From the NCBI GenBank assembly GCA_902784685.1, contig CACZWA010000004.1, positions 1 to 37,093 on the forward strand: a stretch of 37,093 nt of DNA, in the 5' to 3' direction. The notes beneath the pieces were generated by a model, which had not been told where the DNA came from, did not search any database, and was given only the letters and a program-made list of their open reading frames with translations. This DNA comes from an uncultured Ruminococcus sp. (GTDB lineage: Bacteria; Bacillota; Clostridia; RUG12999). The first letter of the stretch is position 1. The number at the start of each line of letters is the position of its first letter. The position numbers were made by a program, and so were the translations under genes. This document shows positions 11,866 to 27,717 of this stretch, piece after piece.

Positions 11866-11894
11866 TTGATTTTTTAATATATTTGTTGTATAAT
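11866..11894 (+). promoter_or_regulatory. Sigma-A promoter of the yqhQ operon
   Basis: TTGATT (11866-11871), a 17-base spacer and TATAAT (11889-11894) predict a start near 11901 and a leader of about 70 bases before yqhQ. Confidence 0.65.
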
Positions 11895-11969
11895 TATAAT
11901 AGATTAGTATATTTAAAGTTAAAAATTATCTTTTATATTTATGTTTTTCCACGGAAAGGAATGATTAAA

Positions 11970-12929
11970 ATGAGTGAAAACAAGGTTCATAAAACCTCTA
12001 TCGGCGGTCAGGCGGTGCTTGAAGGCGTAATGATGAAAGGGCCTGACAAAATTGCCGTTGCCGTAAGAAAATCGAGCGGTGAAATTGTCACCGATGTTCA
12101 GGATATAAAGCCAGCTTCAAAAAGGAATTTCTTTTTGAAACTGCCGATTATAAGGGGCTGTATAGCTTTTTTTGAATCTATGATTGTCGGCGTGAAAACT
12201 CTTATGAAATCCGCCGAAATGTACGACCTTGAGGAGGACGAACCCGAATATACTCCCTCAAAGGTTGATGAGTTCGTTGAAAAAATATTCAAAAACAAGG
12301 ACGCCGTTATTTATTTTTCAGTTGTTGTTGCGGTTCTTTTCAGCGTAGGGCTGTTTTTCATAATTCCGGGCCTTATTTTCAATTTTCTTGCAAAAGTTAT
12401 TGAAAACCGCATTGTTCTCAACCTTATCGAAGGCCTTATAAGAATTGTAATCTTTTTAAGCTATCTCGGACTTGTTTCGATAAACCGTGATATTCAGAGA
12501 GTTTTTGAATACCACGGAGCAGAACACAAAACCATTTTTGCCTACGAACACGGCGAAGAGCTTACTCCCGAAAATGTCCGCAAGTATCAGCGTTTTCACC
12601 CTCGCTGCGGCACAAGCTTTTTGCTTTTCGTTATGATAATAAGTATCCTTGTGTTCTCGCTTATTCCAAAGGAAATCGCAGGTATGCAAATCGGCGGTTT
12701 CGGAACGATTTTAATTAAGCTTTTGCTTTTGCCCATAGTTTCGGGCATTTCGTATGAAATAATAAAATGGGCAGGAAGAAGCGACAGCAAATTCGTTGCC
12801 GCACTCAGCAAGCCCGGTATGTGCCTTCAAAGGCTTACAACCCGTGAGCCTGACGACAGCCAGCTTGAAGTTGCCATTGCCTCGATTATGGCTGTAATTC
12901 CCGATAACAGAGAGGACGATAAGTGGTAA
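11970..12929 (+). CDS. yqhQ: DUF1385 (YqhQ family) membrane protein
   Basis: This 319-residue protein matches the DUF1385/YqhQ family of Firmicutes, whose biochemical role is not established. Family hallmarks are the N-terminal IGGQAVLEGVMMKGP, the central EYHGAEHKTIFAYE and FHPRCGTSFLLF. The conserved His/Glu/Cys residues suggest metal binding. Hydrophobic segments lie at about 110-145, 155-180, 220-240 and 250-270. The ATG at 11970 lies 9 bases after AAAGGA; in-frame codons further upstream overlap the promoter and are rejected. It abuts prmC with no gap. DUF1385 next to prmC is a common clostridial arrangement, often near rpmE and prfA, which are not seen here. Confidence 0.9.
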   Translation: MSENKVHKTSIGGQAVLEGVMMKGPDKIAVAVRKSSGEIVTDVQDIKPASKRNFFLKLPIIRGCIAFFESMIVGVKTLMKSAEMYDLEEDEPEYTPSKVDEFVEKIFKNKDAVIYFSVVVAVLFSVGLFFIIPGLIFNFLAKVIENRIVLNLIEGLIRIVIFLSYLGLVSINRDIQRVFEYHGAEHKTIFAYEHGEELTPENVRKYQRFHPRCGTSFLLFVMIISILVFSLIPKEIAGMQIGGFGTILIKLLLLPIVSGISYEIIKWAGRSDSKFVAALSKPGMCLQRLTTREPDDSQLEVAIASIMAVIPDNREDDKW

Positions 12930-14444
12930 ATGACTATAAAAGAAGCCGTTAGCGGGTATTCGAGAATACTTATGAATACCGACAGCCCTGTACGAGAGGC
13001 AAGACTGCTCGTTTCGTATGTTACGGGCATGGATATGGCAGAGGTGATTGCAAAAGAGGACACGGTTCTTACCCCCAAGTGCGAGGAAGAACTGAAAAAC
13101 GCCGCTTTAAGGCGCTCGGCAGACGAGCCTTTTGCGTATATAACGGGTGAAAAAGAATTTATGGGGCTTAAATTTAAGGTGAACAAAAATGTTCTTATTC
13201 CAAGACCCGACACCGAAATGCTTGTGAATATTGCCTGCGGAAAAGAAAAAAGCGTAATCGACCTATGCACAGGTTCGGGCTGCGTTGCGGTTTCGCTTGC
13301 AAAAAATATGCCGTGGGCAAAGGTAACGGCTGTTGATTTTTCCGATGAAGCTCTTGCGGTTGCAAAGGAAAATGCCGCTCTTAACGGCACAAAGGTTGAA
13401 TTTATCAATAAAGATATTATGAAAGGCAGACTTAAATTCGGGAAAAAATTTGAGCTTGCCGTTGCAAATCCGCCGTATATAAAAAGCGGCGAAATACCTT
13501 TTTTAAGTGGCGAAGTGCGCAGTTATGAGCCGCACGAGGCGCTTGACGGCGGCAAGGACGGACTTGACTTTTACAAAAAAATAGTTGCCGACGCCGAGCT
13601 GTTTTTGAAAACGGGCGGCAGGCTTTGTTTTGAAATAGGAAGCACTCAAAGCGCTGATGTCAAAAAAATTATGAGTGCAAAATTTGAAAATATTAATATC
13701 ATAAAAGACTATGCAGGCTACGACCGTGTTGTGGTTGGCGAGCTTTCGGACTTTTCCGCAGGGAAAAAGCACGAACACAGCGGTCACCGCAGCAGACTCA
13801 GAAAAAGATATATTGACGAAGGGCTTGACGGTTTTCAGCTTCATGAAGTGCTTGAACTTTTGCTGTTTTATGCCGTGCCGAGGCGTGACGTAAATACGCT
13901 GGCTCACAAGCTCATAAACGAGTTCGGCAGTATTTCGGCGGTGCTTGGCGCAAGCGTTGACGACCTTATGAAATACGGCAAGCTTACCGAAAGTGCGGCT
14001 GTTCTTCTTAATCTTATACCGCATCTTTCGAGAATATATTCAAAAGATAAATGGGGCGAAAAGCCTGTTTTAAAAGACAGAACAACTGTCGGACGTTTTG
14101 CCGTGGATTTATTCAGAGGCGCAAATTACGAACAGTTTTACGTTATTTGTCTTGACAGCGCAAACAGCCTTATCAGCTGTGAGAAAATTTCGGAAGGAAC
14201 AATAAACGAAACCGCAGTTTACCCGAGGCTTGTTATTCAGTCTGTAATAAAGTGCAACGCAAACAAGGTTTATCTTGCTCATAATCACCCAAGCGGCTCT
14301 CTTATGCCTTCATGGAGTGACACCGAAATCACCGATAAAATCGAGGTTGCGCTCGGCAGTATTGACGTTGAACTTGCGGACCATATAATAGTCGGAGGAA
14401 ACGAATACGCCTTTTTAAGCGACGCAAGGCGTCCAATGCCTTAA
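12930..14444 (+). CDS. prmC: PrmC-RadC fusion: release-factor glutamine methyltransferase plus RadC/MPN+ domain
   Basis: One uninterrupted 504-codon frame encodes two normally separate proteins. Residues 1-272 are PrmC (HemK), which N5-methylates the Gln of the GGQ motif in release factors. It shows the SAM loop DLCTGSGCVAVSLA (111-124) and catalytic NPPY (180-183). Residues about 281-504 are a full-length RadC (UPF0758): GHRSRLRKRYIDEGLDGF, helix-hairpin-helix HEVLELLLFYAVPRRD, then JAB/MPN+ motif HNHPSG (451-456) with Asp464. The joint SDFSAGKK is short and there is no stop or ribosome site at the boundary (about 13745-13770). RadC's molecular role is unsettled. RadC is often found between maf and mreB in Clostridia; here that site has no radC. 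Confidence 0.93.
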   Translation: MTIKEAVSGYSRILMNTDSPVREARLLVSYVTGMDMAEVIAKEDTVLTPKCEEELKNAALRRSADEPFAYITGEKEFMGLKFKVNKNVLIPRPDTEMLVNIACGKEKSVIDLCTGSGCVAVSLAKNMPWAKVTAVDFSDEALAVAKENAALNGTKVEFINKDIMKGRLKFGKKFELAVANPPYIKSGEIPFLSGEVRSYEPHEALDGGKDGLDFYKKIVADAELFLKTGGRLCFEIGSTQSADVKKIMSAKFENINIIKDYAGYDRVVVGELSDFSAGKKHEHSGHRSRLRKRYIDEGLDGFQLHEVLELLLFYAVPRRDVNTLAHKLINEFGSISAVLGASVDDLMKYGKLTESAAVLLNLIPHLSRIYSKDKWGEKPVLKDRTTVGRFAVDLFRGANYEQFYVICLDSANSLISCEKISEGTINETAVYPRLVIQSVIKCNANKVYLAHNHPSGSLMPSWSDTEITDKIEVALGSIDVELADHIIVGGNEYAFLSDARRPMP

Positions 14445-14468: not shown

Positions 14469-14945
14469 ATGTACGTATTCTTTTTTTTACTTACTTTTGT
14501 TTTTATTTTGGCGGATATTCTTTCAAAGCTTGCGGCTGTTCGCTTTTTACAGCCGATAGAAACATATCCTATAATTAAAAACGTTTTCCACCTCACATAT
14601 TGCCGAAACACAGGCGCCGCATTCAGCATTTTTTCGGGCAGTACAAAGCTTCTTGCTTTTGTTTCTGCGCTTATGATTGTGCTGATTTTGGCTTACATAA
14701 TATACAAAAAACCGCAGAGCCGCCTTTTGCTCCTTTCCTTTTCTATGATAATAGCGGGTGGAATAGGCAATGTTATTGACCGCATTTTAAGGGGCTATGT
14801 GGTGGATTTTTTTGATTTCAGGCTTATAAACTTTGCAATATTCAACGTTGCGGATATTTTTGTATGCGTCGGCGTTGCTTTACTTGCCGTATATATTTTT
14901 AAAAATGATTTTAAAAACGAAAGCCGCGAAGAAAATGATATTTGA
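14469..14945 (+). CDS. lspA: Lipoprotein signal peptidase (signal peptidase II)
   Basis: This membrane aspartic protease removes the signal peptide of prolipoproteins after diacylglyceryl modification. At 158 residues it has the usual length and four hydrophobic segments (about 2-17, 62-79, 86-100, 127-145). Family motifs are CRNTGAAFSIF (45-55), GGIGNVIDRILRGYVVDFFD with catalytic Asp104, and FNVADIF with catalytic Asp129. The ATG follows GAAAGGAC. Its stop overlaps the rluD start by 11 bases, the common lspA-rluD pair. Confidence 0.96.
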   Translation: MYVFFFLLTFVFILADILSKLAAVRFLQPIETYPIIKNVFHLTYCRNTGAAFSIFSGSTKLLAFVSALMIVLILAYIIYKKPQSRLLLLSFSMIIAGGIGNVIDRILRGYVVDFFDFRLINFAIFNVADIFVCVGVALLAVYIFKNDFKNESREENDI

Positions 14946-15855
14946 AATAAATTCGTCAAACTCAGGAAAACGCATTGATAAATTTTTAAGCGAACAGCTT
15001 GCCGACTGCACACGCTCATATATCGGCAAAGTGGCTTCGGGCGGCACGCTTAAAGTGAACGGCAAAATCTGCAAGGCTTCCTACAAACTCAAAGACGGCG
15101 ATACCGTTTCCGTTGAAATTCCTGCGCCTTCCGAGCCTGATATTTTGCCCGAAAATATACCTCTTAACATAGTTTATGAGGACAGCGAGCTTCTTGTGGT
15201 GAACAAGCCGCAGGGGATGGTTGTTCATCCGGCGCCCGGAAATTACAGCGGCACGCTTGTCAATGCCCTCATGTACCATTGCAGGGGCAGTCTTTCGGGA
15301 ATCGGCGGAGTTGCAAGACCGGGGATTGTTCACAGAATAGATAAAAATACATCAGGGCTTCTTATGGTGGCAAAGACAAATGCCGCTCACCTTTCCCTGG
15401 CGGAGCAGATAAAGGAACACAGCTTTTCAAGGCGGTACAAAACAATAGTTCACGGCGGCTTTAAGGAGCAGGAAGGAACTGTTGACGCTCCGATAGGGCG
15501 AAACCGTAAAAACCGTGAAAAAATGTGCGTAACTAACGAAAACTCTAAAAATGCTGTAACTCATTACAGAGTTCTCGGCAGGAGCGCCTGCGGAATGTAC
15601 TCCTATGTTGAGTGCATACTTGAAACAGGAAGAACTCATCAGATAAGAGTGCATATGGCGCATATAGGTCATCCGGTTGTCGGGGACGATGTTTACGGAG
15701 TGAAAAAAGAAAAATTCAGGCTTGACGGACAGCTTCTTCATGCATATCTTTTGGGCTTTAAGCACCCTAAAAGCGGCGAATATATGGAGTTTACAGCCCC
15801 GCTTCCTGCTTACTTTGAAAAAGTTTTATCAAGCCTTGATTTTAAACAAATATAA
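14935..15855 (+). CDS. rluD: RluA/RluD-family 23S rRNA pseudouridine synthase
   Basis: This is a 306-residue RluA-type pseudouridine synthase. An S4 RNA-binding domain (about 10-70: GKRIDKFLSEQL, TLKVNGKICKASYKLKDGD) is followed by the catalytic domain. That domain has the signature HRIDKNTSGLLMVAKT (133-148) with catalytic Asp136, then RTHQIRVHMAHIGHPVVGDDVYG. By family it isomerises uridines in helix 69 of 23S rRNA or nearby; the exact target cannot be read from sequence. The start at 14935 (MIFEINSSNSG) overlaps lspA and gives the normal N-terminus. It precedes pyrR as in many Firmicutes. Confidence 0.92.
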   Translation: MIFEINSSNSGKRIDKFLSEQLADCTRSYIGKVASGGTLKVNGKICKASYKLKDGDTVSVEIPAPSEPDILPENIPLNIVYEDSELLVVNKPQGMVVHPAPGNYSGTLVNALMYHCRGSLSGIGGVARPGIVHRIDKNTSGLLMVAKTNAAHLSLAEQIKEHSFSRRYKTIVHGGFKEQEGTVDAPIGRNRKNREKMCVTNENSKNAVTHYRVLGRSACGMYSYVECILETGRTHQIRVHMAHIGHPVVGDDVYGVKKEKFRLDGQLLHAYLLGFKHPKSGEYMEFTAPLPAYFEKVLSSLDFKQI

Positions 15856-15894
15856 TATAATTTATGCCTGTTTTTAGGCGGATTGGAGACCGTT

Positions 15895-16431
15895 ATGGCA
15901 GCAGAGATTATGGACGGCGCGGCACTTGCCCGTGCAATTACAAGAATATCGTACGAAATCACCGAGCGTAACAAAGGTATAACCGATGTATGCCTTATCG
16001 GTATTCAGCGCAGGGGGGTTGTGCTTGCAAACCGCATTGCCGAAAAAATTTTACAAATTGAGGGCAAGGCGCTTCCGTGCGGCATTGCGGATATTACCTT
16101 TTACCGTGATGATTTAAGCCGTATGAGCGAACAGCCTCGCATAAACCACACAAAAATTGATTTTGATATTAACAACAAAAAGGTAGTTCTTGTTGACGAT
16201 GTAATATACACGGGCAGAACGGTAAGAGCGGCGCTTGACGCCATTATGGATAAAGGAAGACCGAAGCTCATTCAGCTTGCCGTGCTTATTGACAGAGGGC
16301 ACAGAGAGCTTCCCATAAAGCCCGATTATGTCGGAAAGAACGTGCCGACTTCAAACGATGAGCGTATAGAAGTTCTCGTTAATGAGATTGACGGGAAAGA
16401 GGGAGTTGAAATAATAAAAATCGAGGAGTGA
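15895..16431 (+). CDS. pyrR: PyrR: pyrimidine operon attenuation protein / uracil phosphoribosyltransferase
   Basis: PyrR binds UMP/UTP and pyr mRNA to promote attenuation in Firmicutes and has uracil phosphoribosyltransferase activity. The 178-residue protein has the PRPP loop [13 protein letters not shown] (98-110), the N-terminal [17 protein letters not shown] and [10 protein letters not shown]. The ATG at 15895 lies 6 bases after GGAG; a TTG four codons upstream overlaps that site. No pyr biosynthesis genes and no obvious PyrR-binding attenuator appear nearby, so its targets are elsewhere. Only a small GCCT/AGGC hairpin lies in the short gap after rluD. Confidence 0.93.
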
Positions 16432-26011: not shown

Positions 26012-27034
26012 TTATCTTGGTCTGCCGCTCTTTTCAAGGATTTTCCGAAGCATCGGTCTTTCCTCGCCCTCAAGAAGTTTTCCTATTCCGTCTATAACAC
26101 CGTTTAAGGGATTTTCGGCAATATTTACTTTAATATCGGTTTCAAGCTCTATTATTTTATCAAGTCCCCGAAGAAGCGCGCCGCCGCCCGCAAGCATAAT
26201 ACCTCTGTCCATAATATCTGCGGCAAGCTCCGGCGGAGTTTTTTCGAGCGTGCTTTTAATGCAGTCTATAATATTGTAAATCGGTTCTGCAAGAGCTTCT
26301 CTTACCTGGTCCGCTCTTATCTCGACATGGCGGGGAAGTCCCGAAATAAGGTCTCTTCCTTTAATCTGCATTACGCCTTCGCCTTCATACGGATACGCAC
26401 TGCCTATCTGGATTTTTATATCCTCGGCCGTTCTGTCACCAACCTGAAGATTAAATTCTCGTTTTATATATTGAAGAATTGCGCTGTCAAAGGTATCTCC
26501 CGCAACACGCAGAGAATTGCTTATTACAATGCCGCCGAGAGAAATAACGGCAACCTCGCTTGTACCGCCGCCAATATCAACAATCATACTGCCTGTCGGC
26601 TCGTCAACGGGAAGCCCTGCGCCGATTGCGGCGCTCATCGGCTCATAAATCATATACACCTCTTTTGCGCCTGCCTGCATACCGGCTTCGTCAACGGCTC
26701 TTTTTTCAACCTCGGTAACACCGGACGGTATGCATATAACAACAAGCGGTTTTATGAATATGCCTGCCGAGCCGATAGCCTTTCTTATAAACTTTTTAAT
26801 CATAGCCTGCGTCACATCAAAATCGGCAATAACGCCGTCTTTCATGGGTCTTACGGCGTCAATGGTTCCGGGCGTTCTTCCTATCATGCTCTTTGCGTCG
26901 TTTCCCACGCTTAAAACCTCTCCCGTATTCTGATTAACCGCAACAACCGACGGTTCGTTTACAACAACACCCTTTCCTTTAACATAAACAAGAGTGTTTG
27001 CCGTTCCAAGGTCTATTCCGATATCTTTAAGCAT
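26012..27034 (-). CDS. mreB: Rod shape-determining actin homologue MreB
   Basis: MreB polymerises under the membrane and guides lateral wall synthesis. The 340-residue protein has the actin-fold phosphate loops [19 protein letters not shown] (4-22) and [18 protein letters not shown]. It also has the adenosine-binding end [15 protein letters not shown]. The ATG at 27034 ([10 protein letters not shown]) lies 9 bases after AAAGGA; a TTG three codons earlier overlaps the site. Five bases separate it from maf. In many Clostridia radC lies between maf and mreB; here radC is fused to prmC. Confidence 0.97.
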
Positions 27035-27039
27035 TTTAA

Positions 27040-27705
27040 TCAATCCTTTCTCTGCTCTTTTAAGTATTCCTCAGCGTTCACCTTTATTATTCCGTTTTCA
27101 ACATATAATTCCGGCGAAAAATCGCTGTTTACCGTTTTAAAAAAAGTTTCGGTCGGAAAACCGACAACATTAAAATAATCTCCGTCGATTTTCTCCGCAA
27201 AAGCTCCGCCATGCCCCTGTATTCCGTAAGCTCCGGCTTTGTCTTTATATTCGCCTGTATCCAGATAGCTTTCTATTTCGCTTTCCGACAGGTTTTTAAA
27301 CTTAACCTTTGTTTTACAAAAAGCGCAGGCGCAACGGTCATTTTTGCCGTCGAGCTTCCAAAGGCATATTCCCGTTACAACCTCATGGGTGTTCCCCGAA
27401 AAGCGGCAAAGCATTTCCTTTGCATTCTCACGGTCCTTCGGCTTTCCTATAATCTCTCCGTCATACACAACAACGGTATCGGCAGAAACAACCAAATATA
27501 TAACGCCGTCTTTTCTTATAACCTGTTTTGCGGCGGCGCTTCCTTTTAAAAGCGCAAGCTCCTGAGTATAAATTTCGGGAGGCACGCCTTCTTTTTCAAT
27601 ATTTTCGTCTACATTCGGAAGAATTATTTCCGCATCTATATTAAGGTCTTTAAAAATTGTCCTTCGCCTGGGCGATGCGGACGCCAAAATAACCTGTAAT
27701 TTCAA
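27040..27705 (-). CDS. maf: Maf family nucleotide pyrophosphatase
   Basis: Maf proteins hydrolyse non-canonical or canonical nucleoside triphosphates (dTTP/UTP type in this branch) and are linked to septum control in Bacillus. Signatures are [10 protein letters not shown] (6-15), [16 protein letters not shown] and [25 protein letters not shown] start at 27705 ([14 protein letters not shown]) is chosen because it lies 7 bases after AAGGTG; a TTG two codons upstream is only one base away. The length is 221 residues, with a C-terminal tail ([18 protein letters not shown]) about 20-30 longer than usual. It sits directly upstream of mreB. Confidence 0.93.
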
Positions 27706-27717
27706 AAACAATCACCT

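Follow-up and report, generated by a model that had tools for sequence, protein, structure and literature searches.

In the window analyzed here (the whole stretch of 37,093 nucleotides), one reading frame encodes both the release factor methyltransferase PrmC and RadC. RadC is very common in bacteria and, to our knowledge, has no known activity in any organism. Finding it stably fused in nature to an enzyme whose function is known gives a lead that can be tested, and the locus raises the question of whether this fusion is real, how it arose, and what it says about its RadC half.

Two domains in one frame

The frame consists of 504 codons with no internal stops, and both protein families named in the original prediction were matched above their curated cut-offs. 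The PrmC half was assigned to the equivalog family TIGR03534 over residues 23 to 268 (268.6 bits; cut-off, 199.1) and to PrmC_N (PF17827) over residues 7 to 73 (48.1 bits; cut-off, 23.4). Together with the NPPY motif and the SAM loop (DLCTGSGC, residues 111 to 118), both intact as predicted, these matches established that PrmC is complete. Lone clostridial PrmCs end at DRVVxG, where the linker of the fusion starts, and lone RadCs start a few residues before GHRxR; because these ends coincide with the halves of the fusion, nothing essential was lost on either side. A search of the source genome (a 1.55-Mb draft in 212 contigs) for further copies, as had been proposed, returned a single RadC-domain match and a single PrmC; the remaining hits were weak matches to other methyltransferases. 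Features of the locus are listed in Table 1.

Table 1. Positions of features in the window
Feature	Position	Strand	Basis
prmC::radC fusion gene, 504 aa, ATG to TAA	12930..14444	+	Open frame; homologous fusions in five other genomes
PrmC half (residues 1-272): N-terminal helical domain and SAM-dependent methyltransferase	12930..13745	+	TIGR03534, PF17827; DRVVxG end of lone PrmCs; 2b3t_A
NPPY catalytic motif of PrmC (residues 180-183)	13467..13478	+	Invariant in six fusions
Linker region (residues 273-284), of variable length in the family, low model confidence	13746..13781	+	Alignment of fusions; pLDDT
RadC half (residues 285-504), GHRxR clostridial RadC type	13782..14441	+	TIGR00608, PF04002; tree; 2qlc match
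Helix-hairpin-helix region (residues 335-357)	13932..14000	+	Lys at residue 351 (13980-13982) in place of the consensus hairpin Gly
JAMM metal site: E401, H451, H453, S461, D464	14130..14321	+	Unchanged in all six fusions and in the 31 lone relatives
DUF1385 gene, stop TAA abutting the ATG of the fusion	11883..12929	+	PF07136, 303.7 bits
lspA, 3' neighbor of the fusion	14469..14945	+	TIGR00077
RluA-family (rluD-like) pseudouridine synthase, longest frame, true start probably further 3'	14833..15855	+	TIGR00005
pyrR	15883..16431	+	NF003549
maf-mreB junction (maf 27040-27711, mreB 26012-27043), no radC between	26012..27711	-	

The RadC half was matched by TIGR00608 over residues 289 to 495 (140.9 bits; cut-off, 133.85) and by PF04002 over residues 385 to 495 (121.9 bits; cut-off, 22.1), and its score against the RadC equivalog NF000642 (PRK00024), 157.0, was below the cut-off of 180. 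The claim that both RadC motifs were intact stood for the HNHPSG metal motif, the JAMM residue set being invariant, and was too strong for the hairpin. The consensus hairpin Gly is present in 28 of the 31 lone relatives and in none of the six fusions, which carry K, E, or D (K351 in the window) and which all have a Gly one residue before the replaced position. UPF0758_N did not match the fusion protein; the helices of the hairpin region were predicted with confidence in the structure model. The substitution suggests that a DNA-type contact may be weakened in the fused RadC. Since the fusion has been retained between deeply diverged genomes and the changed hairpin is common to all fused RadCs, adaptation of the RadC half to its PrmC partner is possible.

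An AlphaFold2 model built from 41 sequences had a mean pLDDT of 93.3 and a pTM of 0.61, with residues 278 to 281 below a pLDDT of 50. The model points to two well-folded domains on a flexible tether, their mutual placement not fixed. Searched with Foldseek, the PrmC part matched 2b3t (PrmC in complex with RF1; TM score of 0.92 to 2b3t_A by target length) and the RadC part, separately, 2qlc.

The putative substrates of the PrmC half were examined as well. Methylation of GGQ raises the speed and accuracy of termination, and prmC knockout slows growth (PMC8131318). An RF2 with GGQ (SGAGGQ) is present in the genome. RF1 (prfA) was not found in the source draft, where TIGR00019 matched only RF2; it is present in all three congeners and in most of the order, and its absence is most likely an assembly gap. 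Loss of RF1 as a companion event of the fusion was rejected, since the congeners have RF1.

Distribution and gene neighborhood

The sample of the order comprised nine species in one family and three genera (that of the window, g2, and g3). Each of the four sampled species in the genus of the window has the fusion, as do two of the three g3 species, making six genomes in total; neither half was found in the third g3 draft. No fusion was found in g2 (G004 and G006), where both drafts contain a lone radC and G004 also a lone prmC. Two partly overlapping samples, 391 genomes from the class and 398 from the phylum, were searched with the window fusion as the query, such that very different halves or a long linker could escape; no fusion was found outside these six genomes. 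The architecture is thus as rare as had been supposed, being confined to six genomes of one order in class and phylum samples of about 780 genomes.

That assembly or sequencing had merged two adjacent genes might be suspected of a draft in 212 contigs. The probability of such an artifact is practically nil: in the alignment, the other five fused proteins are 65, 60, 53, 40, and 39% identical to that of the window, and their linkers differ in length with the frame always kept, in six separate genomes. Because six genomes carry the same fusion, the junction can be neither a product of chance nor a sequencing error, and the PrmC-RadC fusion is real and inherited. It is also old, being present and in-frame in two genera. 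The dN/dS values for the halves (0.07 and 0.11; G005 versus G007) indicate that both are under purifying selection. Second, partial copies of prmC or radC were observed at contig edges at two loci (L034, G001:C196; L040, G004:C230), and these probably reflect assembly overlap or strain mixture.

The location of the fusion, DUF1385-prmC::radC-lspA-rluD, is common to the six genomes. DUF1385 is the regular 5' neighbor of prmC across Clostridia, as seen at outgroup loci. In g2, the unfused radC is flanked by a NIF3-family gene on one side and by lspA-rluD-pyrR on the other; the DUF1385-prmC pair of G004 is on a different contig from radC and is followed by a convergent truA-like gene. Because the g2 radC already stands before lspA-rluD-pyrR, the radC half is at the place typical of the order, and the adjoining of DUF1385-prmC is the special part. 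At one g2 locus (L041:6222-7747), the unfused radC was observed directly 3' of the NIF3-family (DUF34) gene on the same strand. Among the matches listed for sampled Clostridia outside the order, none had prmC beside radC.

The number of fusion events was addressed with trees of both parts. Fused RadCs formed one group in 51% of bootstraps of the RadC tree, and in the DUF1385-plus-PrmC tree g2 grouped weakly with g3 (AU P of about 0.05 for the alternatives). The shared hairpin change, the synteny, and, weakly, the RadC tree favor a single fusion event; the g2-g3 grouping would weakly favor a split in g2 or parallel fusion.

Weighing of explanations

The observations are best explained by one bifunctional polypeptide in which an intact PrmC and a GHRxR-type RadC with an intact metal site are joined by a short, poorly ordered linker. 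The N-terminal half would act on RF2 and RF1, methylating the glutamine of their GGQ motifs; the C-terminal half would be a JAMM-type metal-dependent hydrolase. In an ancestor within the order, DUF1385-prmC would have become placed immediately 5' of radC-lspA-rluD-pyrR; the stop codon of prmC would then have been lost, and the fusion would have been kept since it made expression of two otherwise independent enzymes coupled and equal. Coupled expression of enzymes that work independently on a flexible link is the preferred reading (probability of about 0.68), because the tether is flexible, no sampled genome outside the order was seen to have the two genes side by side, and PrmC is fused elsewhere to DUF1385, as expected if coupled neighbors simply fuse. 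The fusion probably arose from a chance gene neighborhood, and by itself it does not show what RadC does.

Two alternatives concern the product of the frame and the source of its radC half. One frame in the DNA could yield two proteins in the cell, through internal initiation or proteolysis of the linker, and the variable linker, poorly ordered in the model, would suit this. Against it, no in-frame start codon near the junction that has a ribosome-binding site is conserved among the fusions, and neither the source genome nor G003 has an ATG within 30 codons upstream of GHR. A separate RadC made from an internal start was therefore rejected, and a two-protein outcome by either route is rather improbable. 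The original prediction further held that radC had moved from a place between maf and mreB and then fused. Its starting point was correct, as these genes abut at about position 27040 in the window with no radC between them. The relocation itself was rejected and is very improbable: the RadCs of the maf-mreB site are a distinct paralogue, in a deeply split clade of their own (support, 100/99; stem branch, 1.56 changes per column), two genomes (G030 and G033) carry both RadC types, and the unfused g2 radC already stands at lspA-rluD-pyrR. The fused RadC groups instead with a second clostridial type, GHRxR, whose lone members sit at assorted loci. Since Clostridia have two or more RadC types, a RadC that lies away from maf-mreB has not necessarily come from that site. 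A third RadC-like group ("HTESFLKGLT..."; L056, L059, and L064), with neither GHR nor maf-mreB features, was also observed and forms its own clade (100/99).

The remaining alternative is that the fusion is functional in the Rosetta-stone sense, with the RadC half taking part in the process that PrmC serves; it could, for example, be a JAMM amidase or protease whose substrates are release factor, ribosome, or stalled peptides, and the changed hairpin would mark lost DNA binding. Maintenance of the fusion in two genera under purifying selection, replacement of the hairpin Gly in all six fusions, and the intact metal site agree with this. The confinement to one order, the joining of PrmC to DUF1385 elsewhere, the unrelated genes (not prmC) that adjoin lone GHRxR RadCs, and the DNA-related modules to which other RadC domains are joined (PMC5512222, PMC11981726) argue against it, and it is unlikely. 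A more specific form, in which GHRxR-type RadC would be a hydrolase of translation termination or ribosome quality control that receives its substrate from release factor bound to PrmC, with the fused, altered-hairpin form specialized for the partnership, is a long shot. RadC might act directly in translation termination, but this is unsupported. The proposal that the fusion is a rare functional hint thus held for its rarity; the hint is weak, as the fusion occurs in one lineage only and PrmC fuses to another neighbor elsewhere. Coupled expression of independent enzymes is retained as the preferred reading, and PrmC can be left as it is while the RadC half is inactivated.

Comparison with known systems

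In its first half, the protein resembles PrmC/HemK release factor N5-glutamine methyltransferases (TIGR03534; 2b3t, 1t43, and 1sg9) in full length, NPPY motif, PrmC_N domain, and fold, and differs from them in bearing a C-terminal RadC extension. In its second half, it shares with RadC family proteins (TIGR00608, PF04002; 2qlc) the JAMM residues E, H, H, S, and D and the JAB fold, and differs in the N-terminal PrmC, the replaced hairpin Gly, and a type other than that of maf-mreB. Lone GHRxR RadCs of Clostridia are about 50% identical to the RadC half.

A comparable fusion of PrmC to a tightly coupled neighbor was found in other Clostridia, where DUF1385 (PF07136) is joined in-frame to PrmC; the partner there is DUF1385 and lies on the N side (L094, L095, L096, and L097; genomes G013, G051, G213, and G320). 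Of 25 genomes in one genus (f6/g8), 23 carried DUF1385::PrmC, which was also seen in families f69, f85, f217, f219, f220, and f221; it appears to be more widespread than the PrmC-RadC fusion, and it would link PrmC with what is probably a membrane protein. Bifunctional PrmC/TrmB (NF002421, PRK01544) is a precedent for PrmC as half of a two-enzyme fusion; its partner is a tRNA methyltransferase, and the window protein, at 146.5, falls below the cut-off of 567 for that family. RadC domains are known fused to DNA-related modules, including HhH, ArdC-N, and DinG helicases (PMC5512222, PMC11981726). In the RadC-like DinG proteins (PMC11981726), RadC is likewise a module of a larger protein, with a helicase as the partner. 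A literature search returned no paper linking RadC and PrmC, and the architecture was not found there. Fusions of PrmC and fusions of RadC domains are each known already, and PrmC-RadC is a new combination of these known parts.
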